Source of the DNA: Henriciella pelagia
Lineage (GTDB): Bacteria > Pseudomonadota > Alphaproteobacteria > Caulobacterales > Hyphomonadaceae
Length of the DNA stretch: 64,000 nt
NCBI RefSeq assembly: GCF_002088945.1
Contig: NZ_NCSU01000014.1
Location: forward strand, 62,001 to 126,000
Reading direction: 5' to 3'
In this document: positions 42,132-61,373 of the stretch, piece by piece
Position numbering within the stretch: the first letter of the stretch is position 1
How the letters are laid out: each line of letters opens with the position of its first letter
The notes under the pieces: model-generated
What the model saw: only the letters and a program-made list of their open reading frames with translations
Database searches by the model: none
Told to the model about the DNA's origin: nothing
Translations under genes and position numbers: made by a program

Positions 42132-44960
42132 ATGACCGACCGCCGTTCAGCCACATCTCTGGATCTCACAAGCGTTCAGGAAACGCTGCGCGTAAACGCA
42201 GCCGAGATTGAAAAAGACCCGCTGACGAATTCGGTGCTTTCGCTCGCCCTGTCTCTGTTTCAGGACCTCGATTGCGGAAACCACCATCTCGAAGAATTCG
42301 CCCCGCTGATCGATGATGTTCACTTCAAGCTCTTGTGCGAGCGTGCTGACAGGTTTCGCGCACAGCACATTTCAGTCGGCGCAGGTGATACATGGGCCGA
42401 GGTCCGCTCACGCCTTGAGGCGGCAGCCGAAGACGGGCTCGACGCGTTTACCGCCGCCGCCGGACGCGCGCATGGCGGTATCGTCTTCACCGCGCACCCA
42501 ACCTTCGCACTTTCCAGATCCGTTCGACAGGCATTCGCCGAGCACGCCGCGCAGAATACGGACGAGACGCTCGCCAGATTGCGAGCCGAAGCCAACAATC
42601 CGCACGAAGATTGGCCAGACCAGATCACGCTGCAAAGCGAACATGAAGAGACCCAGTCAGCTATCCGCAACGCCCGCGACGCCGCGCGAAAGTATGCCGA
42701 ACTCGTCATTGAGGTCGCTCAAAAATACTTCCCTGACCAGTGGCGAAGCTTCCGCCCGGTCCTGCCCACGATCGCCAGCTGGGTCGGCTATGATCTTGAT
42801 GGACGCACCGATATTCACTGGTCACAGTCCATTGCGCTGAGACTCGGCGAAAAAGCGGTTCAGCTCTCATACTATGCCGAACGCCTGAGGAGCATCGGCG
42901 CCGGCAACAAGCTCGACGCCGTCATTGCAAGAGTCGAAGCTGCGCAAACCCACACGGCCAAGGCGGCTGAACTGTTCGCAGGCGACCTGTCTTCGTCCGG
43001 CACGCTGATCAAGGCGGCAAACTTCCTGACGGGCGAAACGCAGGCCAAACTGGTTGATAGCGATGAGATTATCGCCCCGCTCGACGCCCTGATCGCCGAC
43101 CCGTCGTCAAGCGCCGATCTCGTGTCCGCCCTGATCGTCCTTCGCTCTGAAATCGAGGCGCTGCAACTTGGCACGGCGCGTATTCATCTGCGCGTCAATG
43201 CTGCACAGGTGCGTACCGTCCTGTCCCGAGACCTCGAGCTCGAGACGGAAGATAGCGAGCTTGGCCGACTGGCGCTCCGCAATCTCGCCGACATGGCCGA
43301 TGGTGAGGCGGTACGGCCTGTCAATTTCGCTGACCTGTTCATCGAGCAGTCGACAGCCCGCCGTCAGTTCATGATGTGCGCGCAGATCCTGAAGCACATT
43401 GATGCGAAATCACCGATCCGGTTTCTGATTGCCGAGAGCGAGAACCCGGCCACCGTCATGGGCGCCCTGTATCTTGCGCATCAGTACGGTGTGGCTCACG
43501 CGCTCGATATCTCCCCACTGTTTGAAACCCCCGAAGCCCTTGAGTCCGGCGGCCGCTTCGTCGAGCGGCTGCTGGAGGAGCCGACTTTTGTCGAATACGT
43601 CAAACAGCGCGGCTATCTTTCCATCCAGCTCGGCTTCTCCGACTCCGGCCGCTTCATTGGCCAGGTCGCGGGCAATATGGCCATTGAGCGGATTCACAGC
43701 CTTATCGGCCGTGCTCTCGGAGACAAGCTGCCCGGCTGCGGCCTGCTCTTCTTCAACACGCATGGCGAGTCCATCGGTCGAGGGGGCTATCCCGGCAGTT
43801 TCGAGCAGCGCTTCGATCACTTGCTGACCAAATGGACTCGCGCCGGCCTGGTCAGTCGCGGCCTGCACCCCCTGCATGAAGTGAGCTTTCAGGGCGGCGA
43901 CGGTTTCATGCATTTCGGAACGCCGGAACTTTCAGAAGCCACATATGCGGCCTTCTGTGAACACATTCTCAGCGACACAGGAAGCGCACATGAGGACCCT
44001 TTCTACAAGCGGACTGATTTCGTCTGGGATGCGTATCGCGCGCTGCGCAGCTGGCATGAGACGATCTTCGGTAATCCGGACTATGCGCACATGCTGGGTG
44101 GCTTCGCGACCGGGTTTCTCGTCAAGGCCGGCTCGCGACCCGTGAAACGGGCTGGCGGAATTATCGCCGGACCATCAGCTATCCGAGCCATTTCGCACAA
44201 TGCATTGCTGCAGCAGCTCGGCGTTCCGCTGAACTCGGCATGTGGCATTGGTTCATCGGTCAGGCGCGAGTCCGAGCGGCTGACTCATCTGATCGACGAG
44301 TCGCCACGTTTGCATTCTCTGGTCATGCTCGCCACCACGGCCCGCATGCTGACCAGCCTGCCTGTCTTGCGTGGATATGCGACGGTATTCGACCCGGAAG
44401 CCTGGCTGTCGCTCGCCAAGCATGGAAATGTCTGCAATGCAGGCGCCATGCATAAGGTCGCGAGCGCGCTCGCCGACTATCAGACATCGACGAGTCTCAG
44501 GAAAATCGCCAACATCCTTGCTGTCGACCTGATGGAGTTTGACCGGCTCCTGAACACGCTCAAGGATTCCCCATCGGTCGAGGACCGCCACGAGGCTCGC
44601 CTCGAATTCCATGCCCTGCACGCCATTCGTCAGGCGATCATGATGTACGCCCTCAGCCTGGTCGGCCGTCTGCGCAATTTCTCGGCGCGGCATGATATCA
44701 GCCTGGAAGAAATCCTCGATCTCGTGCTCAATCTCCAGATTGATGACGCCGTTGCGCGGCTCGAAGAAATCTATCCCCTGTCGAGAGACGATGACGAACT
44801 CGTTTCGGGTCTTTCAGAGCCCGGTTTCGAAGCCAGTTCTGACGCTCTGACCGGATACGACCTTCTGCACAGGGACATTATTGATCCGCTTCGTCTTTCG
44901 GGTGAACTGATCCGCCGAATTTCGCTCGCAAATTGTCATGCTTTCGGCGCGTGGGGATAG
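42132..44960 (+). CDS. ppc: phosphoenolpyruvate carboxylase
   Basis: A 942-residue PEPC with a good ribosome binding site (AGGAGG). The catalytic His motif reads VFTAHPTF (canonical TAHPTE). The two other active-site segments read LGFSDSGRFIGQ (canonical GYSDSxKDAG) and FFNTHGESIGRGGYPGS (canonical FHGRGGSxGRGGGP). The phosphate loop is GSRPVKRAGG. These differ from enterobacterial PEPC but match a divergent class I have seen annotated in alphaproteobacteria. It adds bicarbonate to PEP to make oxaloacetate. It stands alone, 193 bp before the Pfa cluster. Confidence 0.85.
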   Translation: MTDRRSATSLDLTSVQETLRVNAAEIEKDPLTNSVLSLALSLFQDLDCGNHHLEEFAPLIDDVHFKLLCERADRFRAQHISVGAGDTWAEVRSRLEAAAEDGLDAFTAAAGRAHGGIVFTAHPTFALSRSVRQAFAEHAAQNTDETLARLRAEANNPHEDWPDQITLQSEHEETQSAIRNARDAARKYAELVIEVAQKYFPDQWRSFRPVLPTIASWVGYDLDGRTDIHWSQSIALRLGEKAVQLSYYAERLRSIGAGNKLDAVIARVEAAQTHTAKAAELFAGDLSSSGTLIKAANFLTGETQAKLVDSDEIIAPLDALIADPSSSADLVSALIVLRSEIEALQLGTARIHLRVNAAQVRTVLSRDLELETEDSELGRLALRNLADMADGEAVRPVNFADLFIEQSTARRQFMMCAQILKHIDAKSPIRFLIAESENPATVMGALYLAHQYGVAHALDISPLFETPEALESGGRFVERLLEEPTFVEYVKQRGYLSIQLGFSDSGRFIGQVAGNMAIERIHSLIGRALGDKLPGCGLLFFNTHGESIGRGGYPGSFEQRFDHLLTKWTRAGLVSRGLHPLHEVSFQGGDGFMHFGTPELSEATYAAFCEHILSDTGSAHEDPFYKRTDFVWDAYRALRSWHETIFGNPDYAHMLGGFATGFLVKAGSRPVKRAGGIIAGPSAIRAISHNALLQQLGVPLNSACGIGSSVRRESERLTHLIDESPRLHSLVMLATTARMLTSLPVLRGYATVFDPEAWLSLAKHGNVCNAGAMHKVASALADYQTSTSLRKIANILAVDLMEFDRLLNTLKDSPSVEDRHEARLEFHALHAIRQAIMMYALSLVGRLRNFSARHDISLEEILDLVLNLQIDDAVARLEEIYPLSRDDDELVSGLSEPGFEASSDALTGYDLLHRDIIDPLRLSGELIRRISLANCHAFGAWG

Positions 44961-45153: not shown

Positions 45154-46659
45154 GTGTTGGAATCGGAATCTCCCAAGTCCGCAGTTCCGCCTTCAGCCAA
45201 GCCGGTTGAAGTCAGGCCGCCCGTGCACCAATCCATTCCCCCCTCGGGCGGACTTGCCGTGCATGCTGAATGGCTCGGCGATCACAGCTTCACGCGCTTG
45301 CACGGCAGCCGCTTCGCCTATGTCGTCGGTGAGATGGCGCGCGGAATTGCAACACCGCAAATGGTGGTTGAGGCGGTGCGGGCTGGACTGGTCGGCTTTT
45401 ATGGGAGCGCTGGCCTCAGGCCTGAAACAATTTCGGACGGCCTGTCTGAAATCGAGACAGGTCTTGGACCGAATGCCCCAGCCTGGGGCGCAAACCTGAT
45501 CCATTCTCCGCAGCAGGCCGGATATGAGCGCGCCGTCGTGGACCTCTTCCTCAGGCGTAAGGTCGCGCGAGTGTCGGCTTCCGCCTTCATGGCCCTCTCA
45601 CCGGAAATCGTGCGCTATAGCGCTGCTGGTCTCTCGCGCGCCAAGGACGGAACGATCGAGCGCGGCACTCACGTTTTCGCAAAAGTCTCTCGCGCCGAAG
45701 TCGCGCGACAGTTCATGGCACCCGCGCCGGAGAAGATGCTTCAGGACCTGGTCGCCAAGGGTGACATTACCTCAGAACAGGCAACCCTTGCGGCGAGTGT
45801 TCCGGTCGCGGGCGACATTACCGCGGAATCCGATAGCGGCGGCCATACTGACAATCGGGCCGCCGGCCCTCTTTTCTCGTCCCTCGCCCAGGCGCGGCTG
45901 GAGACAAGTAAAGTTCATAATCTGGACCCCGATAGTATCCGCATCGGCCTCGGCGGCGGCATAGGAACGCCATGGGCAGCTGCAGCAGCTTTCCAGATGG
46001 GCGCCGCCTACATCATAACCGGGTCCATCAATCAGGCGGCCGTGGAGTCCGGCCTCTCCCTGGAAGGGCGCAAACTGCTGGCCGATGCGGGCCCTGCAGA
46101 TGTTGCGATGACGCCAGCGGCAGACATGTTCGAACAGGGCGTCCATGTCCAGGTGCTGAAGCGCGGCACCCTTTTTCCGATGCGCGGCAACAGGATGCGG
46201 GCAATATACCTAAGCCGCTCCGGTTTCTCAGACTGCTCCCCGGAAGAAAAGAAATTCATCGAAACGGCGCTCGGCGAAAGCTTTGAAGCGGCCTGGCAGA
46301 AGACCCGGGAATTCCTCGCAGCGAGCAACCCCGGTGACCTCGCCAGAGCCGATCAGGATCCGAAGCGGCAACTCGCTCTGGTGTTCAGGCGATATCTGTT
46401 TTTCGGAGCGCAGTGGGCACGGGACGGCGATCCAGCCCGCATTCGCGACTACCAGATCTGGTGTGGACCGGCGATGGGCGCGTTCAATGAATGGGTAAAA
46501 GGCACGCCGCTTGAGCCGCTGGAAAGCAGGAGCGTCAGGCAGATCGCATGGAATCTGCTCGATGGCGCGGCACACATAACGAAGCTTCAGGCCCTTCGTG
46601 CGAGCGGGACTGACGTCCCACAGTCTGCGTTCGATTATAGGCCGGGACTTTTTGAATAG
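45154..46659 (+). CDS. pfaD: PfaD-like trans-acting enoyl reductase
   Basis: The 501-residue protein has the PfaD family pattern. FAYVVGEMARGIATPQMVVEAVRAGLVGFYGSAGL begins the FMN TIM-barrel. It continues with LIHSPQQAGYERAVVDLFLRRKVARVSASAFMALSPEIVRYSAAG, SVPVAGDITAESDSGGHTDNR and IGLGGGIGTPWAAAAAFQMGAAYIITGSINQA, and ends DYQIWCGPAMGAFNEW. In PUFA and trans-AT polyketide synthases such proteins reduce enoyl-ACP with flavin. It starts at GTG 45154 (AAGGGG upstream). It is the first gene of the cluster, as in the myxobacterial pfa1-2-3 order. Confidence 0.93.
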   Translation: MLESESPKSAVPPSAKPVEVRPPVHQSIPPSGGLAVHAEWLGDHSFTRLHGSRFAYVVGEMARGIATPQMVVEAVRAGLVGFYGSAGLRPETISDGLSEIETGLGPNAPAWGANLIHSPQQAGYERAVVDLFLRRKVARVSASAFMALSPEIVRYSAAGLSRAKDGTIERGTHVFAKVSRAEVARQFMAPAPEKMLQDLVAKGDITSEQATLAASVPVAGDITAESDSGGHTDNRAAGPLFSSLAQARLETSKVHNLDPDSIRIGLGGGIGTPWAAAAAFQMGAAYIITGSINQAAVESGLSLEGRKLLADAGPADVAMTPAADMFEQGVHVQVLKRGTLFPMRGNRMRAIYLSRSGFSDCSPEEKKFIETALGESFEAAWQKTREFLAASNPGDLARADQDPKRQLALVFRRYLFFGAQWARDGDPARIRDYQIWCGPAMGAFNEWVKGTPLEPLESRSVRQIAWNLLDGAAHITKLQALRASGTDVPQSAFDYRPGLFE

Positions 46660-46681
46660 AGTTTGTGAGGGCAAATTCGGC

Positions 46682-49600
46682 ATGATGGATAAACAGGGGT
46701 ATTCAGGCGACATAGCCGTGGTCGGGCTTGGCGCAATGTTTCCGGGACGGGGCGATACGCTCGGTTTCTGGCGGGACATTGCGGAGGGCGTCGATACGCT
46801 TGGACCGGTGCCTTCGTCTCACTGGCTGATCGAAGACTATTACGACGCCGACCCGCGCGCTCGTGACAAGACATATGGCCGCCGCGGTGGTTTCCTGTCG
46901 CCGAAAGGCTTCGATCCGCTCCATTTTGGAATTCCGCCGAACCAGATCGATGCGACGGACACAGCCCAGCTACTTGCCCTCATTGTCGCGCAGCAAGCGC
47001 TGGATGAAGCTGAGCAGGCGACCAGTGGCACGATCGACAGGAAGCGCACAAGCTGCATTCTTGGCGTGGCCTCCGCAACAGAGCTTGTCGGCCATATGTC
47101 AGGCCGGCTCCAACGCCCCAGCTGGGTGAAAGGATTGCGCGAAGCAGGCCTGCCAGAAGACCAGGTCCAGGACATTGCCGACCGGATTTCTTCAAACTTT
47201 TCAGAGTGGAAGGAAAGCACCTTCCCAGGACTTCTCGGCAATGTTGTTGCCGGGCGCATCGCAAACCGGATGGATCTCGGCGGCAGCAATTATGTCACTG
47301 ATGCGGCCTGCGCTTCATCGCTTTCGGCCCTTCACGGCGCCGTCCATGAACTGCGCGCCGGAGACAGTGACCTTGTTCTCGCAGGCGGTGTCGACACACT
47401 GAACGACATCCTGATGTATATGTGCTTCTCCAAGACGCCGGCTCTGTCGCCGACGGAGGATTGCCGCCCGTTCTCGGACAAGGCCGACGGCACCATGCTC
47501 GGTGAAGGCATCGGCATTGTGGCGCTTCGCCGGCTCGAAGATGCCGAACGGGACGGAAACCGCATTCACGCTGTCGTGAAAGGCATTGGCGCCGGCTCTG
47601 ATGGAAGGGCGACAGCAATCTACGCTCCCCTGTCCGAAGGCCAGGCACGCGCGCTCAGCCGCGCTTATGATCAGGCTGGGTACGCCCCCCGCACTGTGGA
47701 GCTTGTCGAGGCCCACGGCACTGGAACCAAGGCTGGCGACGCCGCCGAGATTGGTGGCCTGAAACTCGTCTTTGCACCGGAGAGCTCAGAGCCCGAAGAC
47801 CCATGGTGCGCCATCGGTTCAGTCAAATCCCAAATCGGCCACACCAAGGCGGCTGCCGGCTCGGCAAGCCTGATCAAGACCGTGATGGCGCTCAGCCGGA
47901 AGGTGTTGCCCCCCACGATCAAGGTCGACCAGCCCGCGCCTGCACTCGCCGGTTCGCCCTTCTACGTCAACCGCGAACTACGCCCTTGGGTCAGGGGCAA
48001 GGATCATCCGCGCCGTGCCGCTGTCAGCTCTTTCGGTTTCGGCGGGTCCAATTTCCACGTCACGCTGGAAGAATATGTCGGCGAATTCGCAGCGCAACCT
48101 GAACGCACCCTGAGTAGCGAACTCTTCATGTTCTCGGCTGAAAGCGCAGAAGCGCTCGAACAGGATCTCGAGGCCGCCGCCGCCCGGCTTGAGACCGAGG
48201 ATGATCTCGCAATCATAGCCTCTGAAACTCACGGTGCCTTCGACCCGATGGCGAAATGCCGTGCCGCGATCGTTGCGACAGACGGCGAGGACTATGCCGA
48301 CAAGGCAGGCAAACTCGCCTGGCTGCTCAGCTCCGGGCAGACAGAAAATGCGCCGCTTCCCAAGGGCACCTGCGTTTCGCTGACACATGCCCGCCCCGGC
48401 AAGCTTGCCTTTCTCATGCCAGGCCAGGGCAGCCAGTATGTCGGCATGGGCAGGGATCTTGCCCTTGCCTTCCCGGAAGCACGCGCCGCATGGGATCTTG
48501 CCGCCAGCCACAAGAAAACCGGCAAACAGAAACTGCATGCACTGGCCTTCCCGCCCTCAGCGTTTAGCGCACAAGAGGCCGTCGATCAGGCCGACAGGCT
48601 GACGGCGATGGAGAACGCCCAGCCTGCCCTTGCGGCGGCATCGCTAGCCGTCCTTGCCGTTCTGGAAAAGGCTGGCGTCCATGCCGACACCGCTGCCGGT
48701 CACAGTTTCGGTGAGATCATGGCCCTGCAGGCGGCAGGCGCCCTCAGTCCAAAAGACGCACTGACTGTGGCAAACAAGCGCGCCAGTCTCATGGCAAAAG
48801 CGGCGGCTTCGAATGAAGGCGCAATGCTTGCGACGCAGACGTCGACTGACAAGCTAAAGCCTTTCCTTGCAGACCATCCAGATGTCGTCATTGCCAATGA
48901 CAATGCTCCGACCCAGACCGTCCTCTCCGGTCCGGTTGAAGCAATTGAGGCTGTGCGCACCGCGCTGGACGCGGCCAATATCAAGGCGCGCCGCCTGCCT
49001 GTTGCGTCAGCCTTCCATTCGCCGATTGTCGCTGCAGCAGTGACGCCATTCCGCAAGGCCCTCGAGAAGATTGAGCTGCGGAAGGCGCGCTTTCCGGTCT
49101 ACGCCAATGTCTCGGCCAAGCGCTATCCGCTCGCCTATGCCCGCCAGCGCGACCTGCTTGCGACACAGATTGAAAGTCCGGTCCGCTTTCGCGAAATCAT
49201 TGAAACCATGGCCGCCGATGGCGTCACCACATTCGTCGAGGCGGGCCCCGGCAAGGTACTCACCGCGCTGGTCGGACAGATCCTGCCAGGCAAAGCCGAA
49301 GCCGTCGCACTCGATGACAAGAAAGGTGATGGCCTCGCCGCTTTCCTCGCAGGTCTCGGGAAGCTCGCCGTGCTCGGCCACCCTGTCGATCTGGTATCAC
49401 TGTTCGAAGGGCTTCCTGCGCCTGCCGCAAAAGCATCCCGTTCGAAACACGCCGTTGACCTCAACGGTGCCAATTACAAGAAGCCCTATCCGCCACAGGG
49501 CGGCGCAGCCGCGTTGCCCAAGCCGAACCCCAAGCCTACAGCTGTACCGGCCGAAGCCTCGCCTCCACCCGTGCAGACCGTCGCACCCGCCTCACCACCT

Positions 49601-50647
49601 GCTCAAAGTAAAGTTTCCACAGGAGCCACGCCCGTGACCCAATCTGCCTCCACACCGCCAAGCGACGCTGCCGAGCGCATTCACGCCAATCTCACGGCCG
49701 CGCATGCCGACTATATGGAAGCCCTGAAATCGGCGCATTCGCAATACCTGCAGACGTCTGCTGCCATTCTCGGAAACGCTTCGATGACTACAAGCGCTGC
49801 CCCTGCGACGCCGCGTCAGCAATATGTGGCGCCGCCCGCACCCGCCCCGGTCGTGGCTGCACCAACCCCGGCTCCAGCGCCCGCTGTACCTGCAACCAAT
49901 GGCAGCGGACACGCACCGGCTCCTCAGGCCGCGCCTGCCGCCCAGCCACCCACTGCTCCAACACCTCAACCACCTGCTCCGGCAGCCGCACCTCAGGCAG
50001 CCCTGCATGTGGCGGCGCCTGCACCTGACCCCGTCACCGCCCCCCCGGCTGCAGCCGATTTCAGCGCAGTTGTGACAGCGCTCGTCGCGGAAAAGACCGG
50101 CTACCCAGCCGACATGCTCGAACTCGACATGGACCTTGAAGGAGAGCTGGGCGTCGACTCGATCAAGCAGGTCGAAATCCTTTCCGCATTGCGCGAAACA
50201 ATGCCGGACCTGCCGGAGGTGGAACCGGAGCAGATCGCCGAACTGCGCACGATCCGGAAAATCGCCGACTTTCTTTCGCCTGCTGGCACCGCGGCGTCTG
50301 CTCCGGTCACTGCGGCTCCTGCGCCGCATGCACCGAACGGGAGTGGCAATGGGCATGCTCATCACGCACCGCAGGCTGTCCCGGCGTCCGCGCCACCTTC
50401 TGCACCTTCTGCCCCTGCCGGTGACATGGCTGACCTCGTCCGCAATCTCATTGCCGAGAAGACGGGCTATCCGCCTGAGATGCTCGAAGATGACATGGAT
50501 CTTGAGGGCGAGCTGGGTGTCGACTCCATCAAGCAGGTGGAAATCCTGTCTGCCCTGCGCGACGCCATGCCGAACCTGCCCGAGGTTGAACCTGAACAGA
50601 TTGCAGAGCTCCGCTCGATCCGGAAGATCGCCGATTTTTTTCAGTAG
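46682..50647 (+). CDS. pfaA: PfaA-like polyketide/fatty-acid synthase: KS-AT-ACP-ACP
   Basis: From ATG 46682 (GAGGG upstream; ATG 46685 possible) the zero-frame product is 1321 residues. KS: residues about 8-470, Cys210 in DAACASS, later EAHGTGT and GHTKAAAG. AT: about 570-890, Ser675 in AGHSFGE and SAFHSP. A long Ala/Pro linker with the AHADYMEALKSAHSQYL helix leads to two ACPs, with phosphopantetheine serines 1160 and 1282 in GVDSIKQVEIL. Usual PfaA proteins carry four to nine ACPs followed by KR. Here the frame ends at TAG right after ACP2, at a T7 run, and the KR continues in the -1 frame. Activation requires the PPTase at 59.9 kb. Confidence 0.93.
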   Translation: MMDKQGYSGDIAVVGLGAMFPGRGDTLGFWRDIAEGVDTLGPVPSSHWLIEDYYDADPRARDKTYGRRGGFLSPKGFDPLHFGIPPNQIDATDTAQLLALIVAQQALDEAEQATSGTIDRKRTSCILGVASATELVGHMSGRLQRPSWVKGLREAGLPEDQVQDIADRISSNFSEWKESTFPGLLGNVVAGRIANRMDLGGSNYVTDAACASSLSALHGAVHELRAGDSDLVLAGGVDTLNDILMYMCFSKTPALSPTEDCRPFSDKADGTMLGEGIGIVALRRLEDAERDGNRIHAVVKGIGAGSDGRATAIYAPLSEGQARALSRAYDQAGYAPRTVELVEAHGTGTKAGDAAEIGGLKLVFAPESSEPEDPWCAIGSVKSQIGHTKAAAGSASLIKTVMALSRKVLPPTIKVDQPAPALAGSPFYVNRELRPWVRGKDHPRRAAVSSFGFGGSNFHVTLEEYVGEFAAQPERTLSSELFMFSAESAEALEQDLEAAAARLETEDDLAIIASETHGAFDPMAKCRAAIVATDGEDYADKAGKLAWLLSSGQTENAPLPKGTCVSLTHARPGKLAFLMPGQGSQYVGMGRDLALAFPEARAAWDLAASHKKTGKQKLHALAFPPSAFSAQEAVDQADRLTAMENAQPALAAASLAVLAVLEKAGVHADTAAGHSFGEIMALQAAGALSPKDALTVANKRASLMAKAAASNEGAMLATQTSTDKLKPFLADHPDVVIANDNAPTQTVLSGPVEAIEAVRTALDAANIKARRLPVASAFHSPIVAAAVTPFRKALEKIELRKARFPVYANVSAKRYPLAYARQRDLLATQIESPVRFREIIETMAADGVTTFVEAGPGKVLTALVGQILPGKAEAVALDDKKGDGLAAFLAGLGKLAVLGHPVDLVSLFEGLPAPAAKASRSKHAVDLNGANYKKPYPPQGGAAALPKPNPKPTAVPAEASPPPVQTVAPASPPAQSKVSTGATPVTQSASTPPSDAAERIHANLTAAHADYMEALKSAHSQYLQTSAAILGNASMTTSAAPATPRQQYVAPPAPAPVVAAPTPAPAPAVPATNGSGHAPAPQAAPAAQPPTAPTPQPPAPAAAPQAALHVAAPAPDPVTAPPAAADFSAVVTALVAEKTGYPADMLELDMDLEGELGVDSIKQVEILSALRETMPDLPEVEPEQIAELRTIRKIADFLSPAGTAASAPVTAAPAPHAPNGSGNGHAHHAPQAVPASAPPSAPSAPAGDMADLVRNLIAEKTGYPPEMLEDDMDLEGELGVDSIKQVEILSALRDAMPNLPEVEPEQIAELRSIRKIADFFQ

Positions 50648-50672
50648 GGGGCGCGCCGGCGCCTTCGCGCGC
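50635..50672 (+). promoter_or_regulatory. candidate -1 ribosomal frameshift signal (T7 slippery heptamer plus stem-loop)
   Basis: The zero-frame codons GAT TTT TTT CAG TAG contain the heptamer T_TTT_TTT at 50635-50641, a canonical X_XXY_YYZ site. After a 9-nt spacer GCGCGC (50651-50656) can pair with GCGCGC (50667-50672). An alternative 5-bp GGCGC/GCGCC stem starts at 50650. A -1 shift reads straight into the KR frame and bypasses the TAG. Confidence 0.55.
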
Positions 50673-52146
50673 TGACCGCCCCGCTTCGGCCTCTGAAGCG
50701 AGCCGCGCGCCGTCGTCGGCACTGGCTGTTCGCGCGGTAGGCTATGTCGAACAGCGGCCAGTCGGGCGTGTGACGCCTGGCCTGCGCGAAGCAAGGCTGA
50801 TCGAGTTTATCGGGCCGGACCCGGCCCAGAACTTTCACTTTGTGCAGGCGATGATGGAAGCCGGTCTGGTCGTCCGCGAAGTGGACCAGCCAAGCGGCCA
50901 GGCCGACGCACTGGTGCTTGCAAGCGGTTTTTCCGGCGACACGCTGACCGCACACTCCCGCGCAGTGGCGCAGTTGTCGCGAGCAGCTCCAAGGCTGGAG
51001 CAAAGTCAGGGTGCGCTGGTCCTGTTGCAGGATACAGGCGGCTCTTTCCAGCCGCGCGATGCGCGCGCCTGGCTTGGCGGTCTAGCAGGCCTCGGCCGCA
51101 CGGCGCAGAAAGAGTTTCCGTCCATCACAGTGCGCACAATCGACGTCGACCTCGCGGCACTCGGCGCGCGGCCTGCCGCAGATCGCGTCGTCGAGGAATT
51201 GCTGTCGGGCGGTGCCGCGCCCTGTGTCGGCCTGTCTGAAACTGGACGCGTCGTGCCTGCAGAAGTGGACGCGCACAATGCCCCCAGCTCGCCAGATACA
51301 ATAAGTGCCCAAGACACCTTCCTCGTCACTGGCGGCGCGCGCGGCGTGACTGCGACCTGCATCATCGAACTTTCCCGGCGCACCAGGGCGAACTTCGTTC
51401 TGCTCGGCCGCTCACACATTGAGGACTGGCCTGCCGGACTCGCTTCTGACCTCGACGAAAGAGCCCTGCGGGGCGCACTCGCCGCGCGAGCGAAGGCGGG
51501 CGGCCAGAAAATGTCTCCCGCCGAACTCAACCGTCAGGCATCGCGCCTCCTCGCAGGTGCCGAAATCCGCCAGACGCTGTCAGCGCTTGAAGCTGCAGGC
51601 TCCCGCGTGCACTACGCTGTTGCGGATGTCGCAGATGCGTCAGCGGTAAAAGCCGCGATTCGCGATGCTGAAAGCCTGTTCGGCCCCATCACCGGCCTGG
51701 TTCACGGTGCGGGCGTCCTCGCTGATAAGCTGATCCGCGAGAAAACCGCTGAACAGATTGCACGCGTGTTCTCGCCGAAAGTGCTTGGATTGCAAACCAT
51801 CCTTTCAACACTCGACGCCAGGCGGTTGAAACATATTGCCTTTTTCTCGTCCGTCGCCGCACGCTACGGCAATACCGGCCAGTCCGACTATGCCATGGCG
51901 AATGAGATCCTGAACCGGGTCGCGCACGGCATGAAGGCGGCCAATCCGGGAGCGTGCGTGACGTCCCTTGGCTGGGGGCCATGGGATGGCGGGATGGTCG
52001 ATGACAGTCTGCGGGCGAAATTCGCCGAAATGGGTGTGAGCCTCATTCCCCAGCAGGACGGCGCAAACCTCTTTGCTGACGCACTCCTCGCTGGACCGCT
52101 CTGTCCTGTCGAACTCATTATCGGCTCGGAACTTGGACATGGCTGA
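50641..52146 (+). CDS. ketoreductase segment of PfaA, in the -1 frame
   Basis: Read from the slippery site in the -1 frame, a Ser/Ala/Pro linker (VGGAPAPSRADRPASASEAS) leads directly into a KR module. Its features are DTFLVTGGARGVTA for NADPH binding, VLLGRSHIEDW, LVHGAGVLADKLI, the Lys in RVFSPKVLGLQT, and the Ser-Tyr-Asn set in FFSSVAARYGNTGQSDYAMANE. About 501 residues would be added to PfaA, giving roughly 1821 in total. The GTG at 50770 has no ribosome binding site and would cut off the linker. The last 8 nt overlap pfaC. No DH follows the KR, unlike most PfaA. Confidence 0.85.
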   Translation, partial: SVGGAPAPSRADRPASASEASRAPSSALAVRAVGYVEQRPVGRVTPGLREARLIEFIGPDPAQNFHFVQAMMEAGLVVREVDQPSGQADALVLASGFSGDTLTAHSRAVAQLSRAAPRLEQSQGALVLLQDTGGSFQPRDARAWLGGLAGLGRTAQKEFPSITVRTIDVDLAALGARPAADRVVEELLSGGAAPCVGLSETGRVVPAEVDAHNAPSSPDTISAQDTFLVTGGARGVTATCIIELSRRTRANFVLLGRSHIEDWPAGLASDLDERALRGALAARAKAGGQKMSPAELNRQASRLLAGAEIRQTLSALEAAGSRVHYAVADVADASAVKAAIRDAESLFGPITGLVHGAGVLADKLIREKTAEQIARVFSPKVLGLQTILSTLDARRLKHIAFFSSVAARYGNTGQSDYAMANEILNRVAHGMKAANPGACVTSLGWGPWDGGMVDDSLRAKFAEMGVSLIPQQDGANLFADALLAGPLCPVELIIGSELGHG

Positions 52147-55100
52147 TCGCCGGTTCGAGCCCATAGCCATTGTCGGACGCGGCTGCGTGCTGCCCGGAGC
52201 ACTATCGCCCACGGCGCTCTGGCAAGCCGTCCTCAGCGGAAAAGACCTGCTCTCGTCAGCGCCAGCGGATAAATGGGGTGTGACGGCACAGGAACAGTCT
52301 GCGTTCGGATATCGCGGGGGCTTCGTCACAGGGTTCGAGCAAGTCTTCGACCCGGACCAGCACGCGCTTGGAAACATCGACGCTGCGGCGCTCGACCCAC
52401 TCTTCCAGTGGTTGCTGCATGCCGGGCGAGACGCGTGGATGGAGGCCGGTGCCCCGAAGGTGAAAGCAAAAAAGCTTGGCGTCATCGCCGGCAATCTCGG
52501 CTATCCAAGCCGCGCGCTCTCTGACTTTGCTGCTGACTTCTGGCTGGACGGCCAGTCTGATGTGCACCCGGAAAACCGGTTCAACACCGGCGGACCCGCC
52601 CGAATTCTGGCCCGCGCACTGGGGGCGAAGGGAGGTGCCTTTGCGCTCGATGCCGCCTGTGCATCGTCTCTCTATGCCGTGAAACTCGCCTGCGACAGAC
52701 TGCAGGATGGCTCACTGGATGTCGCGATCGCCGCCGCCGTAAACGGCGCGGACAATCTCATCTTGCACCAGGGCTTCAGTGCCCTGAACGCGCTCAGCAA
52801 GACCGGTCGGTCTCGCCCTTTCGCCAAGGGTGCCGATGGCCTTGTGCCAGCCGAAGGCGCAGCCGCCATCGTCCTGAAGCGCCTGTCAGACTGCAGCGCC
52901 AAAGAAACAGTGTTCGGTGTCATCCGCGGCATCGGCCTGTCCAATGACGGGCGCCGAAAATCCCTGCTCGCACCCGACGAAGACGGCCAGACAGAAGCCA
53001 TGGCTGAGGCCTGGGCCATGGCCGGACTCGACCCGTCCACGGATATCGGCCTCGTCGAAGCGCACGCCACGGGAACACCAACAGGCGACACCGTCGAACT
53101 CAAGGCGACATCGCAGTTCTTCAGTGGCGTGGACAACCTGCCTATCGGCTCACTCAAGGGCAATCTCGGTCACCTGATCACCGCGGCGGGGCTGGCCAGC
53201 CTCATCAAGCTGACCTTTGCGATCAATGAAGGCACAATCCCCCCCACACGCCTGGATGGCGAGCCGCTCGACGATTTCAGCGGCTCAAACCTCACCCCGG
53301 CGAAATGCGTAGACTGGCCGACCGGTCGGCCCCGGATTGCCGCTATCAGCAATTTCGGCTTTGGCGGCAATAATGCTCACCTCGTGCTCATGGCCGATGA
53401 TGGCACGCGAACACCTGCAAAGGTTCACAAGAACAAGGCAAGGCTCGCCATTTGCGGGGTTGGCCTCAATATGGGACCGGACCGGGGCCTCGCCCGCATC
53501 CTTCAGCGTCTCAGCCGCCCCCCGAAAGCAGAGCGGCGAGCCATGGACGAAATCGTCGCCCAGCCGAGAACATTGCGAACGCCCCCTTCCGAACTCTCCT
53601 CCGCACAAGGCCAGCAGCTGGCACTGTGGGACGCGGTCGATGAGGCCCTCGACGCCTCGCCCCTCGATGAAGGAGAGCGCGTTGGCGTCTTCACCGGCTT
53701 TTCCTGCTCGGCCGAAGCTACACGCTGGATGTTCCGCGCCCGCATTGCCAACCGCCTCAACATTCCGCCGGACAGTCAGCAGGCTGACGAGGCGCGCGCC
53801 GCAATCTGCCCACCGCTTCTGCCAGGAGATGTACTCGGCGCCATGCCGAACGTTTCTGCGAACCGTATCAATGTACGCGGCGACTGGCGGGCCATGGGGT
53901 TCGCCGTCATGGAAGAGGAGGCATCCGGCCTCCGCGCGCTCGAGCTTGCTGCGCGAGCCCTGCAGGCCGGTGAGATTGACGCCGCCATCGTCGCAGCGGC
54001 AGACCTTTCAAATGATGCGGTGCATCAGGCGGCCACTGGAGGAGGCGGCGGCGACGCTGCTGTCGCGCTTATCGTCAGACGCACCTCGGACGCTGCAGAC
54101 GGCGTTCGGCTGAAGTCGATCAAGGTCAGCGACAACCCCGCTGAAGAAACCCTGCTTGAACGCCTCTACGGACAGTCCCACGCGGCAGGCGGGCTCGCGA
54201 GGCTGGCCGTCGCGGCAAAGCTTTCAGAGCGCGGCTACAAGCTCGGACCGGCTGGCCTGTCTCCCAATTTCTCCAACAAGCCACTGAAGCTTGCGTTGTC
54301 CGGTGGCCGCGTCAGCCTCAAAGCGCGCCCTGTTCCGGCTCCTGATCTCCTGCGTCCGACACCGGTGCTAGAGACATATGCCGCCGGAAGCCGGGACGAT
54401 CTGGTGACCGGGCTTGCTTCCCGCAAGCAGAACGCGTCAGGCAAGGTTCGTCTGGCGCTTCTTGCGGACACTGGTGACGCAATGGAAACGATGCGCGCGC
54501 GCAGCATCACCGAGCTGAAAGCGGGTCGCATCCCCGAAGGAAAAGGCGTCCACTTCGGCGAGGGCGACGCGCAGGGCGAACTCGCATTCGTATTCACCGG
54601 TGCTGCCGCGGCATATTCCGGCATGGGACAAGGCCTGTTTGCTGCCTTCCCTGAACTCGCCCCAATGGTGGCGGGCAGGTTTCCAGCCGCTCAATCGGTG
54701 GCCGACCTGCTGTCCAGCGATCTTTCCTCTGCATTCGATCAGCTGCGCGCAACCACGCTCATCTCACAGGCGCAGAGCCTTCTGCTGAGGGGTCTTCTCG
54801 GCCTTCAACCCACTGTCGCCATGGGGCTTTCATCGGGAGAAACCAATTCGCTGATAGCCTTCCAGGCCTGGGTAGACGCCGACGGCCTGATGGCAACAAT
54901 TGGCGACAGCGGAATGTACACTGATGACCTCGCAGGTGCCTTCCGGACCGCGCAGCACGCCTGGAAGGATGACGCTCCGGTGCAGTGGGAAACATGGCGG
55001 CTACGCGCGCCAGAGCGCGATATTCGCGCTGCCCTCAGGAGCGAACCGCGCTGTGACCTCACCATTCTCTACAGCCCAACCGATGCGGTGATCTCCGGCG

Positions 55101-58100
55101 ATGCCGGCGCATGCCAACGCGTCCTGAAATCGATTGGAGGCTCAGCCATCCGTGTCCCGCATGACCTTGTCGTGCACACACCAATGATGGAACCATACGC
55201 CGAAACCTGGCGGTCCCTGCACCATCGCAAGACGAAGGCGCCGAAGAAGATTCGCTTCTATGCGAATGCCACCAGCAAACCCTATGTACCGGATGCCGAG
55301 ACTGTTGCCGACATGCTCACCGGCCAGGCCATCCGTGAAGTGAATTTCCCCAAAACCCTTCGCCAAGCCTATGCAGACGGCGTTCGCACCTTCGTGGAGA
55401 TCGGACCACGCGACACGCTGACCGGGGCCATTCGCGAAACACTTGGCAATGACGTCATCGCCATTGCCACAGACCGGTTCGGCCAACCCGGCCTCAGCGA
55501 CGTCGCTTCTGTCGCGGCATCGGTCTTTGCGGCCGGACACGCGGTCGACGTGGACTGGCTGAAGCACCGCCTCGACGAGTGCCGCGAGCATTCGATCACG
55601 CCGAGGCTGTCCCGTGATGGCGAAATCCGGCTACCGGCCCACACCGCTCCGCCCTCCCTGCCGCGCCGAAAAACCCAGCGTACGCTGCCCGAGCCACCAT
55701 CCCTGACAAGCCACCGCCAATTCCGCCCAGAACCTGCGAGACCCGCGCTTGGGCGCAGAATGCCACCAGCGCCGGGCACAGCCTGGACACCGCCAACGGG
55801 CGAAACCGCCCTGCTGGAAAGGCCGGCCCTCGCCCGCACCGGCCCGACGCTCAAGCCGGTGCAGAAACTATCAGGCGTCACACCACTGGCTCGCCGGGCG
55901 CCGTCCGGGCCGCAATTTACCCGCGCCCAACTCGAACACGCTGCTGCCGGCAACATCTCGGACGTGTTCGGTGAACAGTTCGCGTCGCAGGACAAGTATC
56001 GCCGGCAGGTCCGCATGCCGCGTCCGCCGCTGCTCCTCTGCGATCGCATCACAGGAATTGATGCTGAGGCCCTGGTGCACGGCAAGGGAACCATCTGGAC
56101 CGAGACCGATGTAACCGAAGGACACTGGGCGGTCAGCAACGGTGTCATGCGACCTGGCCCGCTCATTGAAGCGGGACAGGCCGATCTTGCGCTCATCTCC
56201 TGGATGGGCGCGGATATGCTCAATTGCTCCGACCGCGTCTACCGTCTCCTCGGATGTGAGCTCACCTTTCACGAAGGGGGTCTGGCACGGACTGGCGAAA
56301 CGCTGCACTTCCAGATTTCGATCAAAGGGCATGCGGAGCTTTCAGGCGTTCGCATGTTCTTCTTCGAGTATGATTGCTATGCTGACGACCGGTTGCTTCT
56401 GTCGGTACGGAATGGTCAGGCAGGCTTCTTCACCGACGCGGAACTGTCCGATTCAAAGGGCGTGCTCTGGGACGCTGAGGCCGATGGCCCACCGACAGCA
56501 GAACCGCGCCTTGCGGACGTGCCTGCCTCACGCAAAGCGGCATTCGACGCGGCAGAGGTCGCCGCATTCCGGGCAGGCGACACATTTGCCTGTTTCGGGC
56601 CCGGCTTTGAGCGTGCCGCGCCACATACACGGCCCGCCTGTCTGCCCGACGGCCGCCTCGCCCTCTTCGACGATGTAGAAATCTTCGAGCCTCAGGGCGG
56701 TCCATGGAAGCGCGGATACCTGAAAGCCCGCCACCACGTCCCGAAGGATGCCTGGTTCTATGACGGCCACTTCCACGAAGACCCCTGCATGCCGGGCACC
56801 CTGATGGCCGAGGCGGCAGTCCAGGCGCTTGAATTCACCGCCGCCGCACTCGGCCTCACCATTGAGCGCGACAGCCATGTCTTCGAACCCGCTCCCGGCG
56901 AGCAGGCCGTCTTCTATTGCCGCGGCCAGGTAACACCAGAGAGCGATCATGACGTGACTTACGAAGTCTTCGTCGATGAGATCGTCGATGGCGAAGAACC
57001 GATGCTCTTCGCCAGCCTGCTGGCGCGATCGGACGGTCGGAAGGTCTTCTACTGTCCGCGCTTCGGTGTCCGGTTGCGTCGCAGCTGGCCAGAGACCACG
57101 AGGCCCGTACAAGTTCCGCATTATGTGAATGACGAATGCGATGTGCGCGGCGACGAAACCGCTCTCATGGAGTGCGGGTCAGGCGCCCCGAGCCGGGCTT
57201 TTGGCTCAATGTACAAGCCGTTCGATACGGCTGGCGCGGTGCCTCGCCTGCCACAACCACCCTATCACATGGTCAGCCGCGTCCTCTCTGTGACCGGGCC
57301 CGCCGGCGCGCAGAAGGCCGGTCTGACGGCTGTCGCCGAATACGATATTCCGCCCGATGCCTGGTATTTCGAGGACGGCGGAACCGGCACCATGCCCTTC
57401 AGCGTGCTGACCGAAGTCATCCTTCAACCCTGCGGCTGGCTCGCCTCCTATTCCGGTTTTGCCCTGTCTGGTGAAACTCGCTTCCGCAACCTCGATGGTT
57501 CGGGCGCAACCGCACGGCAGGTCAGGCCCGGTGACGGCATGATCCGTACCCGTACAACACTGACGCGTTGTTCACGGGTCGGCCCGATGACCATCGTGTT
57601 TTTCCAGCTGGAGGCTACGCTTGCCGATGGAACACCGGTTGTTTCACTCGAGACAAGTTTCGGCTTTTTCACCAAGGCTGCACTGGCCTCGCAGGCTGGC
57701 CTCAAGGCTAGTGAGGAACAGCAGACCTTCTTCAATGCGCCGGCTGACCCGCCTACAGAGTCCGGAACGCTCCTTCCCGCATCGAGCCACCGGCTGGCCC
57801 TGTTCGATGTCATTGACCGTTTCGAGGCAAAGGGAGGCGAGGCCGGTCTTGGCCGCATCCGTGCTCGGCAAAGCGTTGATCCGTATGCCTGGTATTTCAA
57901 GGCACATTTCTTCTCAGACCCTGTGCAGCCCGGATCACTCGGGCTTGAAATGCTGGTCCAGCTACTGGCCCGCGCCGCAGACCTTAACGGGCACGCCGAT
58001 CCTTACGACCAGCCCGTCTGGGAACCGATTGCACCGGATGAAACCTTCACCTGGACCTATCGTGGCCAGGTCAATCCGACCGCCCGGCAGGTCACGCCAA

Positions 58101-59374
58101 TTGTTGAAATCGAACGCGTCGTAGCAGGCGAAGGCGAGACGATCGTGACCGGGACCGGTTCGATCTGGGTCGACGGCATGAGGATTTACGAGATGCGCGG
58201 CGTCAGCATCCGAATTTCGGAGGCCGCTCCAGAGGTGAGCGCGACGAGCCTGACCCGATTCACGCCTGCAGAGCCATCATGGCTCGCTTCTCATTGCCCG
58301 ACCTACACACTTCCTGCCCTGCCGCTCCTCGCACAGGCCGGCATGGCGATGCGGCAGGCTGCGGTCTCTCAAAACATCGCATTTCCTCTTGAATTGAAGG
58401 ACTTTTCTCCGCGGCGATGGGCAAGTGTGGGGTCACAGGGCCTGACCGTCGAAACGCAGACCCAGCCCGGCGGGCGAACCAACCTGCGAGGCCGCAACGC
58501 TCTATCGGGCGATGCCCCCTGGTATGACATCTCCTCCGGCCAGGTCTCATCCGTGCTGCGCCCACCGAAGGCCAGGCTCGACGTCAGGCGCCATGGCCGC
58601 AAACGCGCGGACCCATATCACTCGGCAGACCTTTTCCACGGACCGGCATTACAGCCCGTCACCGAGCTTCGCCGCAGCGCGACCGGGTTCGAAGCCCTGA
58701 TCGACCTCACAAGGGCCGAAACGCCGGGTGACGCATTCGACCCCGTCATTCTCGACGGATTGGTCCACGGCCCGCCCCACGAGACACCGGAGGAATGGTT
58801 CGACGGCACAGATGGACACGCCATCTATCCGGTGCGTATCGACCGTCTCGTCATCTGTAGTGAGCTTCCCGAAGACGGCATTCTGACCGTGCGCGGCACC
58901 CCCGGACGACCCGATCCCGCGACTGGTGACCTGCCCGTCGCGATAGAAGCGCTGATCGGCGACACACTCTGGGCGCGTCTCGATCTCATCGAGAAAGCTT
59001 ACCCCAAGGGACCGTTGGCTGCCTTGTCCGCACTGGAGCGGCGAGCCTTTCTCACCGGAAAGGACACCGACCAACCGGCCCCGCTGACCCGTTTCGACGG
59101 CACGCATACCCGCCTCTCTCCGGCCGATGTCATCAGCTGCGACTGGCTTCCCGGTACCGTAAGCGCCGTCTGGGGTTGCGGGGGGCGCACTGGCCGGGAC
59201 CTCGTCAAAGCTGTCGCGATCAAGGAGCATTTCGCTCGCAAATGGGGCGTACACCCACAGAAAATCCAGCTTGATGAGCCATTCGTCATTGGACCTGCGG
59301 GCCGTCGCCGTTACAGTTTGGCATTCGACCCCGTTGCCCGCGCCTGGGCTGTCTCGGACGATGCATATGAGTGA
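52139..59374 (+). CDS. pfaC: PfaC-like synthase: KS-CLF-AT-DH-DH-PKS-type DH-ACPS-like tail
   Basis: A 2411-residue protein starting at ATG 52139, inside the KR end. Order: KS (1-420, Cys174 in DAACASS); a CLF-like second KS (430-680) whose active-site Cys is lost (WRAMGFAVMEEEASG); PfaB-like AT (800-1080, Ser898 in GLSSGE); a Pro-rich linker; FabA-type DH (1261-1655, His1544 in DGHFHEDPCMPGT); second FabA-type DH (1685-2035, His1923 in HFFSDPVQPGSLGLE); PKS-type double-hotdog DH (2040-2310, His2052 and Asp2206 in LDGLVHG); and a tail with GRDLVKAVAIKEHF resembling a degenerate AcpS domain. KS-CLF-AT-DH-DH recalls myxobacterial Pfa3, without its acyltransferase end. Confidence 0.92.
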   Translation: MADRRFEPIAIVGRGCVLPGALSPTALWQAVLSGKDLLSSAPADKWGVTAQEQSAFGYRGGFVTGFEQVFDPDQHALGNIDAAALDPLFQWLLHAGRDAWMEAGAPKVKAKKLGVIAGNLGYPSRALSDFAADFWLDGQSDVHPENRFNTGGPARILARALGAKGGAFALDAACASSLYAVKLACDRLQDGSLDVAIAAAVNGADNLILHQGFSALNALSKTGRSRPFAKGADGLVPAEGAAAIVLKRLSDCSAKETVFGVIRGIGLSNDGRRKSLLAPDEDGQTEAMAEAWAMAGLDPSTDIGLVEAHATGTPTGDTVELKATSQFFSGVDNLPIGSLKGNLGHLITAAGLASLIKLTFAINEGTIPPTRLDGEPLDDFSGSNLTPAKCVDWPTGRPRIAAISNFGFGGNNAHLVLMADDGTRTPAKVHKNKARLAICGVGLNMGPDRGLARILQRLSRPPKAERRAMDEIVAQPRTLRTPPSELSSAQGQQLALWDAVDEALDASPLDEGERVGVFTGFSCSAEATRWMFRARIANRLNIPPDSQQADEARAAICPPLLPGDVLGAMPNVSANRINVRGDWRAMGFAVMEEEASGLRALELAARALQAGEIDAAIVAAADLSNDAVHQAATGGGGGDAAVALIVRRTSDAADGVRLKSIKVSDNPAEETLLERLYGQSHAAGGLARLAVAAKLSERGYKLGPAGLSPNFSNKPLKLALSGGRVSLKARPVPAPDLLRPTPVLETYAAGSRDDLVTGLASRKQNASGKVRLALLADTGDAMETMRARSITELKAGRIPEGKGVHFGEGDAQGELAFVFTGAAAAYSGMGQGLFAAFPELAPMVAGRFPAAQSVADLLSSDLSSAFDQLRATTLISQAQSLLLRGLLGLQPTVAMGLSSGETNSLIAFQAWVDADGLMATIGDSGMYTDDLAGAFRTAQHAWKDDAPVQWETWRLRAPERDIRAALRSEPRCDLTILYSPTDAVISGDAGACQRVLKSIGGSAIRVPHDLVVHTPMMEPYAETWRSLHHRKTKAPKKIRFYANATSKPYVPDAETVADMLTGQAIREVNFPKTLRQAYADGVRTFVEIGPRDTLTGAIRETLGNDVIAIATDRFGQPGLSDVASVAASVFAAGHAVDVDWLKHRLDECREHSITPRLSRDGEIRLPAHTAPPSLPRRKTQRTLPEPPSLTSHRQFRPEPARPALGRRMPPAPGTAWTPPTGETALLERPALARTGPTLKPVQKLSGVTPLARRAPSGPQFTRAQLEHAAAGNISDVFGEQFASQDKYRRQVRMPRPPLLLCDRITGIDAEALVHGKGTIWTETDVTEGHWAVSNGVMRPGPLIEAGQADLALISWMGADMLNCSDRVYRLLGCELTFHEGGLARTGETLHFQISIKGHAELSGVRMFFFEYDCYADDRLLLSVRNGQAGFFTDAELSDSKGVLWDAEADGPPTAEPRLADVPASRKAAFDAAEVAAFRAGDTFACFGPGFERAAPHTRPACLPDGRLALFDDVEIFEPQGGPWKRGYLKARHHVPKDAWFYDGHFHEDPCMPGTLMAEAAVQALEFTAAALGLTIERDSHVFEPAPGEQAVFYCRGQVTPESDHDVTYEVFVDEIVDGEEPMLFASLLARSDGRKVFYCPRFGVRLRRSWPETTRPVQVPHYVNDECDVRGDETALMECGSGAPSRAFGSMYKPFDTAGAVPRLPQPPYHMVSRVLSVTGPAGAQKAGLTAVAEYDIPPDAWYFEDGGTGTMPFSVLTEVILQPCGWLASYSGFALSGETRFRNLDGSGATARQVRPGDGMIRTRTTLTRCSRVGPMTIVFFQLEATLADGTPVVSLETSFGFFTKAALASQAGLKASEEQQTFFNAPADPPTESGTLLPASSHRLALFDVIDRFEAKGGEAGLGRIRARQSVDPYAWYFKAHFFSDPVQPGSLGLEMLVQLLARAADLNGHADPYDQPVWEPIAPDETFTWTYRGQVNPTARQVTPIVEIERVVAGEGETIVTGTGSIWVDGMRIYEMRGVSIRISEAAPEVSATSLTRFTPAEPSWLASHCPTYTLPALPLLAQAGMAMRQAAVSQNIAFPLELKDFSPRRWASVGSQGLTVETQTQPGGRTNLRGRNALSGDAPWYDISSGQVSSVLRPPKARLDVRRHGRKRADPYHSADLFHGPALQPVTELRRSATGFEALIDLTRAETPGDAFDPVILDGLVHGPPHETPEEWFDGTDGHAIYPVRIDRLVICSELPEDGILTVRGTPGRPDPATGDLPVAIEALIGDTLWARLDLIEKAYPKGPLAALSALERRAFLTGKDTDQPAPLTRFDGTHTRLSPADVISCDWLPGTVSAVWGCGGRTGRDLVKAVAIKEHFARKWGVHPQKIQLDEPFVIGPAGRRRYSLAFDPVARAWAVSDDAYE

Positions 59375-59951
59375 TTTCGAACTGATCGTGGCTGACCAGC
59401 GGGTCATGCCGCTCGTCCAGCATCTGCGTTATCGCGTCTACTGCGCGGAGAAGCGGTTCGCGATGGCCGGCGCCGATCACGAAGCGCGAATATTGACGGA
59501 CGAGGCAGACAAGCTCGGCGTCACATTCGCCCTGTTTGACGGTGCGGAGCTTGTCTCCAGCGCTCAGATCATCCCGGTGAATCCGCTCGATGAGGAGGCC
59601 CGCTTTGCCGTGTTCGACCTCGCCTCAGTTCTGCCCCGCCCGGACCAGGGCGCGGTGATCGTCTCCAAACTGGTCACGGCAAAGGACAGGCGCGGCTCCA
59701 AGACGCTGGGCCCCGTCATGCGCGCAGTGCTCGAATTCGTTTCGGCCGACAAAAGGCGCTACATCGCGATCCTGGCCGAGCCTGGCATGCGCGATTTCTA
59801 CGCGTCCATGGGTTTCGAGGCGCTACGGGAGGGCATCACGGCCGCGCCGTTCGGTGAAGTGACACTGATGGTGTTCGACATGAAGGATGAGCGCCATTTG
59901 AGCGGCAAGTCACTCGCAGGCTGGATGTTCAAGCCTATCTTCGCGCGCTGA
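59367..59951 (+). CDS. GNAT acyltransferase of the N-acyl amino acid synthase/LuxI/OlsB type
   Basis: From ATG 59367, overlapping the pfaC stop by 8 nt, the protein has 194 residues. LRYRVYCAEKRFAMAG with acidic residues downstream resembles the LuxI/FeeM/OlsB N-terminus. SAQIIPVNPLD is followed by the GNAT core VIVSKLVTAKDRRGSKTLGPVMRAVLEF and YIAILAEPGMRDFYASMGFE. These relatives transfer acyl chains from acyl-ACP to an amino group. Being coupled to the synthase, it is a good candidate for offloading the product onto an amine. Its acceptor is unknown and an ordinary acetyltransferase role cannot be excluded. Confidence 0.8.
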   Translation: MSDFELIVADQRVMPLVQHLRYRVYCAEKRFAMAGADHEARILTDEADKLGVTFALFDGAELVSSAQIIPVNPLDEEARFAVFDLASVLPRPDQGAVIVSKLVTAKDRRGSKTLGPVMRAVLEFVSADKRRYIAILAEPGMRDFYASMGFEALREGITAAPFGEVTLMVFDMKDERHLSGKSLAGWMFKPIFAR

Positions 59952-61243: not shown

Positions 61244-61373
61244 CTAATTGTTTTTCTTGCGCTCTTCGTCGCGCAGTTTTTTTTATAAGATCTTGCAGCT
61301 TGTCGGGGACCGGTTCGGTCAGGACATCCCGGTAGGCGTTGCGAAGAGCCTCGCCAATCGGCTTTTCCTTCAT
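61244..61373 (-). pseudogene. nepR: NepR-like anti-sigma factor, frame broken at an A8 run
   Basis: The minus strand encodes MKEKPIGEALRNAYRDVLTE and then PVPDKLQDLIKK, the NepR helix-turn-helix core. An A8 run (T8 at 61277-61284 on the plus strand) follows. As written the frame goes on to 61152 with unrelated residues and overlaps ecfG. With one A fewer it becomes KKLRDEERKKNN and stops at 61244, a natural NepR end. So either the run is miscounted, slippage repairs it, or the gene is mutated. It lies immediately upstream of ecfG, as usual. Confidence 0.65.

Follow-up and report, generated by a model that had tools for sequence, protein, structure and literature searches.

The window analysed here, a 64,000-nucleotide stretch of the Henriciella pelagia genome, carries a PfaA-type synthase gene that occupies two overlapping reading frames on the forward strand. 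The zero-frame ORF (46598–50647) specifies a short product of 1349 amino acids counted from a GTG; an ATG at 46682 may be the real synthase start, because the ORF of the upstream cluster gene, which encodes a PfaD-type protein (45154–46659, forward strand; TIGR02814), ends at 46659. The zero-frame ORF scores 1060 bits against TIGR02813 (PfaA), above the cut-off of 1010.1, and contains KS, AT and two ACP stretches, the domain order that the original prediction had placed upstream of the slip. The first ACP (50069–50275, forward strand) is the best PP-binding stretch (residues 1158–1226), and the second (50426–50641, forward strand, with approximate limits set by eye) ends in the slippery site.

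The zero frame closes with GAT TTT TTT CAG TAG, in which a run of seven T (50635–50641) is read in phase as T_TTT_TTT and the TAG stop (50645–50647) follows 3 nt later, as had been claimed. An open -1 frame extends from 50596 to 52146; if entered by a slip at the heptamer, it would run for 501 amino acids (50641–52146, forward strand) through an Ala/Pro/Ser linker into a ketoreductase (KR) domain (Pfam KR, E = 3.5e-36; core PF08659 at 51316–51987, forward strand), as the original prediction had described. The KR region matches positions 1911–2268 of TIGR02813 (E = 9.7e-92, 307.8 bits), a score below the whole-protein cut-off because this region corresponds to only a part of the model. The predicted long product, composed of the zero-frame part and the -1 part, would contain approximately 1849 amino acids. 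The KR domains of the closest named relatives, which belong to Henriciella, are 59–65% identical to that of the window.

A PfaC/PfaB-like synthase follows (52073–59374, forward strand), with a KS, a weak AT, three FabA-like stretches and a weak PS-DH, and an ATG at 52139 overlaps the end of the KR frame. Just beyond this synthase, on the reverse strand (59935–60579), lies a 4'-phosphopantetheinyl transferase gene (PF01648, 53.1 bits), whose product is perhaps the partner that activates the synthase ACPs. Upstream of the pfa genes, a 942-residue protein (42132–44960) shows a partial match to phosphoenolpyruvate carboxylase, scoring above the Pfam cut-off (49.6 bits) and 53.9 bits against an NCBIfam cut-off of 815.

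In order to compare this junction with those of its relatives, we searched 200 related genomes for the KR; 58 matched, 57 of them (including that of the window) in the family Hyphomonadaceae, and 55 junctions could be read. The two family genomes left out were G099, whose fetched stretch lacked an ACP, and G104, whose match begins at contig base 8. The heptamer was present in all 55 junctions as T_TTT_TTY (TTTTTTT in 38, TTTTTTC in 17) and was followed at an equal distance, one codon further on, by a zero-frame stop whose position was kept although the codon itself varied (TGA in 21, TAG in 19 and TAA in 15). The KR lay in the -1 frame in 54 of the 55, the exception being G052, where it is in the zero frame, and across these genomes it was 37–73% identical to that of the window. 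In G035, the KR match crosses a TAG at its very end.

The signal is conserved beyond what protein coding requires. The first Phe codon of the site was TTT in all 55 junctions, whereas in the rest of the fetched sequence of these ORFs TTT accounted for 392 of 1448 Phe codons (27%). The preceding base was always T, the residue there being Asp in 53 junctions and Asn and Gly in one each. At the matching motif of the earlier ACP, which was found in seven stretches, there was no TTT TTY pair, and in the window this motif reads GAC TTT CTT, with no slippery heptamer. An in-phase X_XXY_YYZ heptamer occurred within the last 36 nt in 55/55 ORFs, versus 1106 of 56519 background windows (2.0%) from the same ORFs; these family counts are not independent events, since close relatives make up many of the rows. 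Within the window, TTTTTTY shows no excess, the two strands together giving 5 matches where 8.7 would be expected; what raises the window site above chance is its conservation across the 55 junctions.

These comparisons bear directly on the concern, raised with the original prediction, that the frame break could be a homopolymer miscount or a recent mutation private to the window genome. A further T8 run on the forward strand (A8 on the reverse strand, 61277–61284), presumably the nepR homopolymer noted earlier, had lent this concern some weight, but the same arrangement recurs in 54 of the 55 junctions, and the orthologues do not uniformly carry eight T in one open frame, as an assembly error would have implied; instead, they share a T6 or T7 heptamer, the stop and the -1 KR. 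Sequencing error was therefore rejected and both forms of this explanation are ruled out, their chance being practically nil. It is likewise extremely improbable that the gene is a pseudogene decaying across the family: the G052 junction does look broken, but the frames are long in nearly all junctions fetched whole (approximately 1300–1440 codons for the zero frame and 478–619 for the KR frame), and substitutions upstream of the site are concentrated at third codon positions (348/219/1335 at positions 1, 2 and 3 of the zero frame, 23 pairs).

A putative stimulatory hairpin (50648–50682, forward strand) lies directly downstream of the stop. Its outer stem (50648–50653/50677–50682) consists of six G-C pairs, GGGGCG/CGCCCC, and an inner stem is formed by 50657–50662 and 50669–50674. 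The six pairs agree with the original prediction, but the stem opens 6 nt past the heptamer and not 9 nt, and its 3' arm extends the element beyond position 50672, where it had been taken to end. The spacing between a heptamer and a downstream RNA structure is suitable at approximately 5–9 nt, a range that includes the 6 nt found in 54 of the 55 folds. Taken alone, the hairpin of the window is not exceptional for G+C-rich DNA (z = -0.58; 52 of 200 shuffles were as stable).

In minimum-energy folds of 40 nt, a G+C hairpin opens at the first base past the stop in 54 of the 55 junctions (all but G052), and on average 2.5% of 40 shuffles each were as stable. At least five of the first seven bases opened a pair in all 55 real sequences but also in 55% of the shuffles, so that this count provides no evidence. 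Pair counting was restricted to 35 of the 55 rows, which share one register with 13 pairs and comprise 29 distinct sequences, since a first ungapped alignment of all 55 rows misplaced groups with loop indels; the 20 rows with other spacing or an unclear register, including G052, were dropped. In the 35 rows 85.7% of the cells were paired, 47 cells were changed on both sides (shuffled mean, 18.6) and the covariation score was 0.372 (shuffled mean, 0.205); none of 500 shuffles reached any of these values, although the shuffles do not preserve the relatedness of the rows. When the partner register was slid, pairing fell to 48–62%. Two further measures, based on numbers of pairs or of pair types and least affected by relatedness, were not significant: 8 pairs changed on both sides versus 6.0 (43/500 shuffles as high), and 19 further pair types versus 17.1 (79/500). 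With three of five measures beating all shuffles and two not doing so, the stem appears supported. RNAalifold, unprompted, recovered the outer stem together with a portion of the inner stem, with changes on both sides in five of nine pairs. Of 20 junction loci that had not been used to train a covariance model, the model recovered 13 at E ≤ 1, most of them above 0.01; the 13 included G052, which has lost its 3' arm, and one additional match fell off-site.

Compared with its sibling G093 (L114), G052 (L122, approximately 5261–5317) has lost about 32 nt, counted by eye, just past the site. The deletion takes the 3' arm of the stem, leaves the heptamer and stop in place and puts the KR in the zero frame behind the TAA. 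This genome may represent a natural broken version of the junction or an assembly fault.

We also considered that the KR could be made as a separate protein that acts in trans, through reinitiation or internal initiation within the -1 frame, in which case the overlap would simply be a tight gene junction. A precedent is described in the parts of PMC3098273 covered here, namely the pfaA of Psychroflexus torquis, split into a KS-AT-ACP gene and a KR gene. Some family members would lend themselves to such a scheme: a -1-frame start codon lies within 60 nt of the stop in 12 of 54 genomes, with an ATG overlapping the stop in G095, and in 12 of 54 a Shine-Dalgarno-like motif accompanies some start within approximately 420 nt. 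Outside the family, a TTG overlaps the stop in L053 and L072, so that translational coupling could operate there. Across the 54 family genomes, however, there is no conserved KR start codon: the first possible start (ATG, GTG or TTG) in the -1 frame falls anywhere from -1 to +317 relative to the stop (median, +77), only two of these first starts are preceded by a Shine-Dalgarno-like motif, and the Shine-Dalgarno-associated starts are scattered. The conserved T_TTT_TTY is, moreover, not something that a separate start would predict.

Substitution patterns point in the same direction. Between +45 and +120, substitutions at positions 1, 2 and 3 of the -1 frame numbered 106/54/184 (24 close pairs), and in the stretches that precede any start in either genome they numbered 87/74/132 (the 19 of 27 pairs that were long enough), a modest third-position lean in pairs that share genomes. 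This suggests that ribosomes already translate the -1 frame ahead of any codon at which they could start, and we regard independent initiation of the KR as improbable.

A third way of joining the frames is transcriptional slippage, by which an additional T in part of the mRNAs would open a single frame without any slip of the ribosome. The T7 run of 38 of the 55 junctions is the kind of sequence on which this could act, and the A runs described below for cyanobacteria, L049 and L053 would suit it; the remaining 17 junctions, however, have a run of no more than six T, ended by a C, and for realignment Antonov et al. give T runs above 8 in the parts of PMC3711429 considered. The phase of the heptamer, the distance to the stop and the hairpin all fit the ribosome. 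We thus consider transcriptional slippage very unlikely as the explanation for the family signal.

The reading that we favour is a conserved programmed -1 ribosomal frameshift at the PfaA ACP-KR junction, which we consider very probable given the anatomy of the junction and its conservation, the coding signs in the -1 frame, the evidence that favours the stem and the absence of a start codon conserved for the KR. A ribosome that has translated KS-AT-ACP-ACP would arrive at U_UUU_UUU with both its P and A sites occupied by tRNA-Phe, and would there meet a hairpin, six nt downstream, that resists unwinding. In a fraction of ribosomes both tRNAs would re-pair one base back, as U_UUU_UUY allows for both Phe tRNAs, and translation would continue through SVGGAP into the linker and the KR; the remaining ribosomes would read one more codon and stop, releasing a KR-less short product. 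In E. coli, UUN and homogeneous ZZN A-site codons shift better (PMC4066793, in the portion consulted), and hence so should UUU and UUC. Since both products would come from one gene, the synthase would be a mix of KR-bearing and KR-less subunits, in a ratio set by the signal. The programmed reading put forward in the original prediction is thereby supported by conservation, and from it we infer that slippage occurs with some efficiency, that the cell makes use of two stable products, and that their ratio, which had been proposed to be fixed, is relevant.

Among more distant relatives the KR is mostly fused in frame. A search of 398 genomes, of which 59 matched, found the KR within a single frame of 1982–2836 amino acids in other families of the same order (G144, G213, G247, G261 and G286); in the same class, G436 has a KR frame of 1512 amino acids (3 of 289 genomes matching), and the Shewanella and Psychromonas loci also have a KR fused in frame. 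The 120 nt that follow the ACP were read in four of seven loci with a fused or long KR frame (L139, L205 and L207 were left out): there was no in-phase heptamer in L203 (G261), L204 (G213) and L040, and L206 (G247) had one in-phase CCCTTTT near the end of the 120 nt.

Split arrangements nevertheless recur outside the Hyphomonadaceae. Such loci were chosen, among 80, by frame and not by heptamer. The first eight tested, which include L064, had an in-phase heptamer within 36 nt of the stop, compared to 403 of 10149 background windows (4.0%). In 23 of 24 split loci, counted with their relatives, the KR is in the -1 frame and an in-phase heptamer lies in the overlap, 7–43 nt before the stop; the exception is L064, which has an A run but a KR in the +1 frame. 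Paenibacillaceae carry A_AAA_AAG|TAG in four of four matching genomes (197 searched), and L053, of this family, has an A run. Among the Acidimicrobiales (4 of 148 genomes matching), three genomes combine C_CCT_TTG with a GGCTGG/CCAGCC hairpin; G836, in contrast, is fused, and the frame of G707 is 2360 amino acids long. Ten Nostocaceae junctions, picked from 125 matching genomes for a short KR frame or an internal stop, all have A_AAA_AAA, and many other Nostocaceae matches have frames of approximately 2300 amino acids. The same heptamer is found in Nostoc L106, Aphanocapsa L072 and Mucilaginibacter L049, with A_AAA_AAC in Pelagicoccus L046 and G_GGA_AAA in Actinomadura L070 (one genome). No second member was found for L046 in the 113 genomes searched, nor for L049 in 151.

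For the cyanobacterial and other A-run cases, ribosomal and transcriptional slippage both fit, and not all need be ribosomal. In the Elusimicrobia genome NORP122 (L064, near 5846), an A10 run precedes the ACP stop, an arrangement that, with its +1 KR, suits transcriptional slippage better than a -1 ribosomal shift. Three loci were not counted as frameshift candidates: L083 (Anaerolineaceae 4572_78, 4833–4948), in which a -1 break without a heptamer lies inside a tandem ACP array and is perhaps a repeat misassembly; L062, which contains a run of N; and L055, where the KR is in a separate frame and the apparent ACP motif proved false.

We built a KR tree by a quick method with no bootstraps; of its 93 rows, 27 were split, 63 were called fused and 3 were unlabelled. 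The tree requires 10 changes between the split and fused states, with at least five forced by branches with SH-aLRT ≥ 95; rows not known to be split were taken as fused by default, some of them (e.g. L156 and L205) by frame length alone, and L033–L035, L055, L062, L064, L083, L087, L195 and L198 were left out. The different heptamers and this tree lead us to favour a repeated origin. There is about an even chance, in our estimation, that the ACP-KR border of PfaA/HglE-type synthases is a recoding hotspot, at which a -1 shift arose repeatedly in several phyla, each with its own heptamer, holding the KR below the carrier and ketosynthase domains and giving mixed dimers of KR-bearing and KR-less chains. 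This repeated appearance elsewhere is more surprising than the family signal and less firmly shown.

Split pfaA genes are already known (PMC3098273 and PMC13291983, in the parts considered). The pfaA1/pfaA2 pair of Psychroflexus torquis (Type D) resembles our loci, as does the Type H split, in that pfaA is divided, in Type D between the ACPs and the KR, but the covered text of PMC3098273 gives them as separate genes, and the comparison is by description only. The word 'frameshift' does not occur in the main text of PMC3098273, nor in the parts of PMC13291983 and PMC11804610 covered. On the side of recoding, the first part of the review PMC5009743 does not contain 'polyketide', 'fatty acid' or 'acyl carrier'; the text of PMC3711429 considered uses 'polyketide' once, for a cyclase, and neither of the other two terms; and that of the PRFect preprint (PMC10274946) has neither 'polyketide' nor 'synthase'. 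Among the matches listed in the open-access literature, a scope that excludes subscription papers and supplementary tables, none linked PfaA-type synthases to frameshifting, in the parts of the texts covered. The junction is well supported as a canonical -1 frameshift signal, and we found no report of one in this class of genes.

To our knowledge, bacterial chromosomal genes with well-supported -1 frameshifting are few, dnaX being the textbook one. If the reading proposed here is true, a lipid or polyketide megasynthase that adjusts the dose of a single catalytic domain by frameshifting would put this process to a new use, and the recurrence of this solution at one and the same domain border in distant bacteria would open domain stoichiometry in iterative synthases to testing. 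Such synthases may be cut into two genes by gene callers and cluster tools.

In E. coli dnaX, a programmed -1 frameshift yields tau and gamma, the short form arising from the shift. Our junction resembles dnaX in that a hairpin follows the heptamer and a single gene would give two forms, long and short, of a multidomain protein, but here the heptamer is U_UUU_UUY, the long form would come from the shift, and the gene encodes a lipid megasynthase. A signal of the form AAA_AAA_G, flanked by a Shine-Dalgarno-like element upstream and a hairpin downstream, is described in the part of PMC3711429 considered, where dnaX is not named. With PfaA (TIGR02813) the window gene shares the KS-AT-tandem ACP-KR order and the pfaD- and pfaC-like neighbours, and it differs from PfaA of the Shewanella and Psychromonas loci in that its KR is in the -1 frame. 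Insertion sequences of the IS3/IS911 type (PMC4066793, in the portion consulted) likewise combine an X_XXZ_ZZN heptamer, a downstream stimulator and two overlapping frames that become fused; in contrast to those mobile elements, the site described here lies in a chromosomal biosynthetic gene, and its zero frame ends one codon past the heptamer in all 55 junctions.
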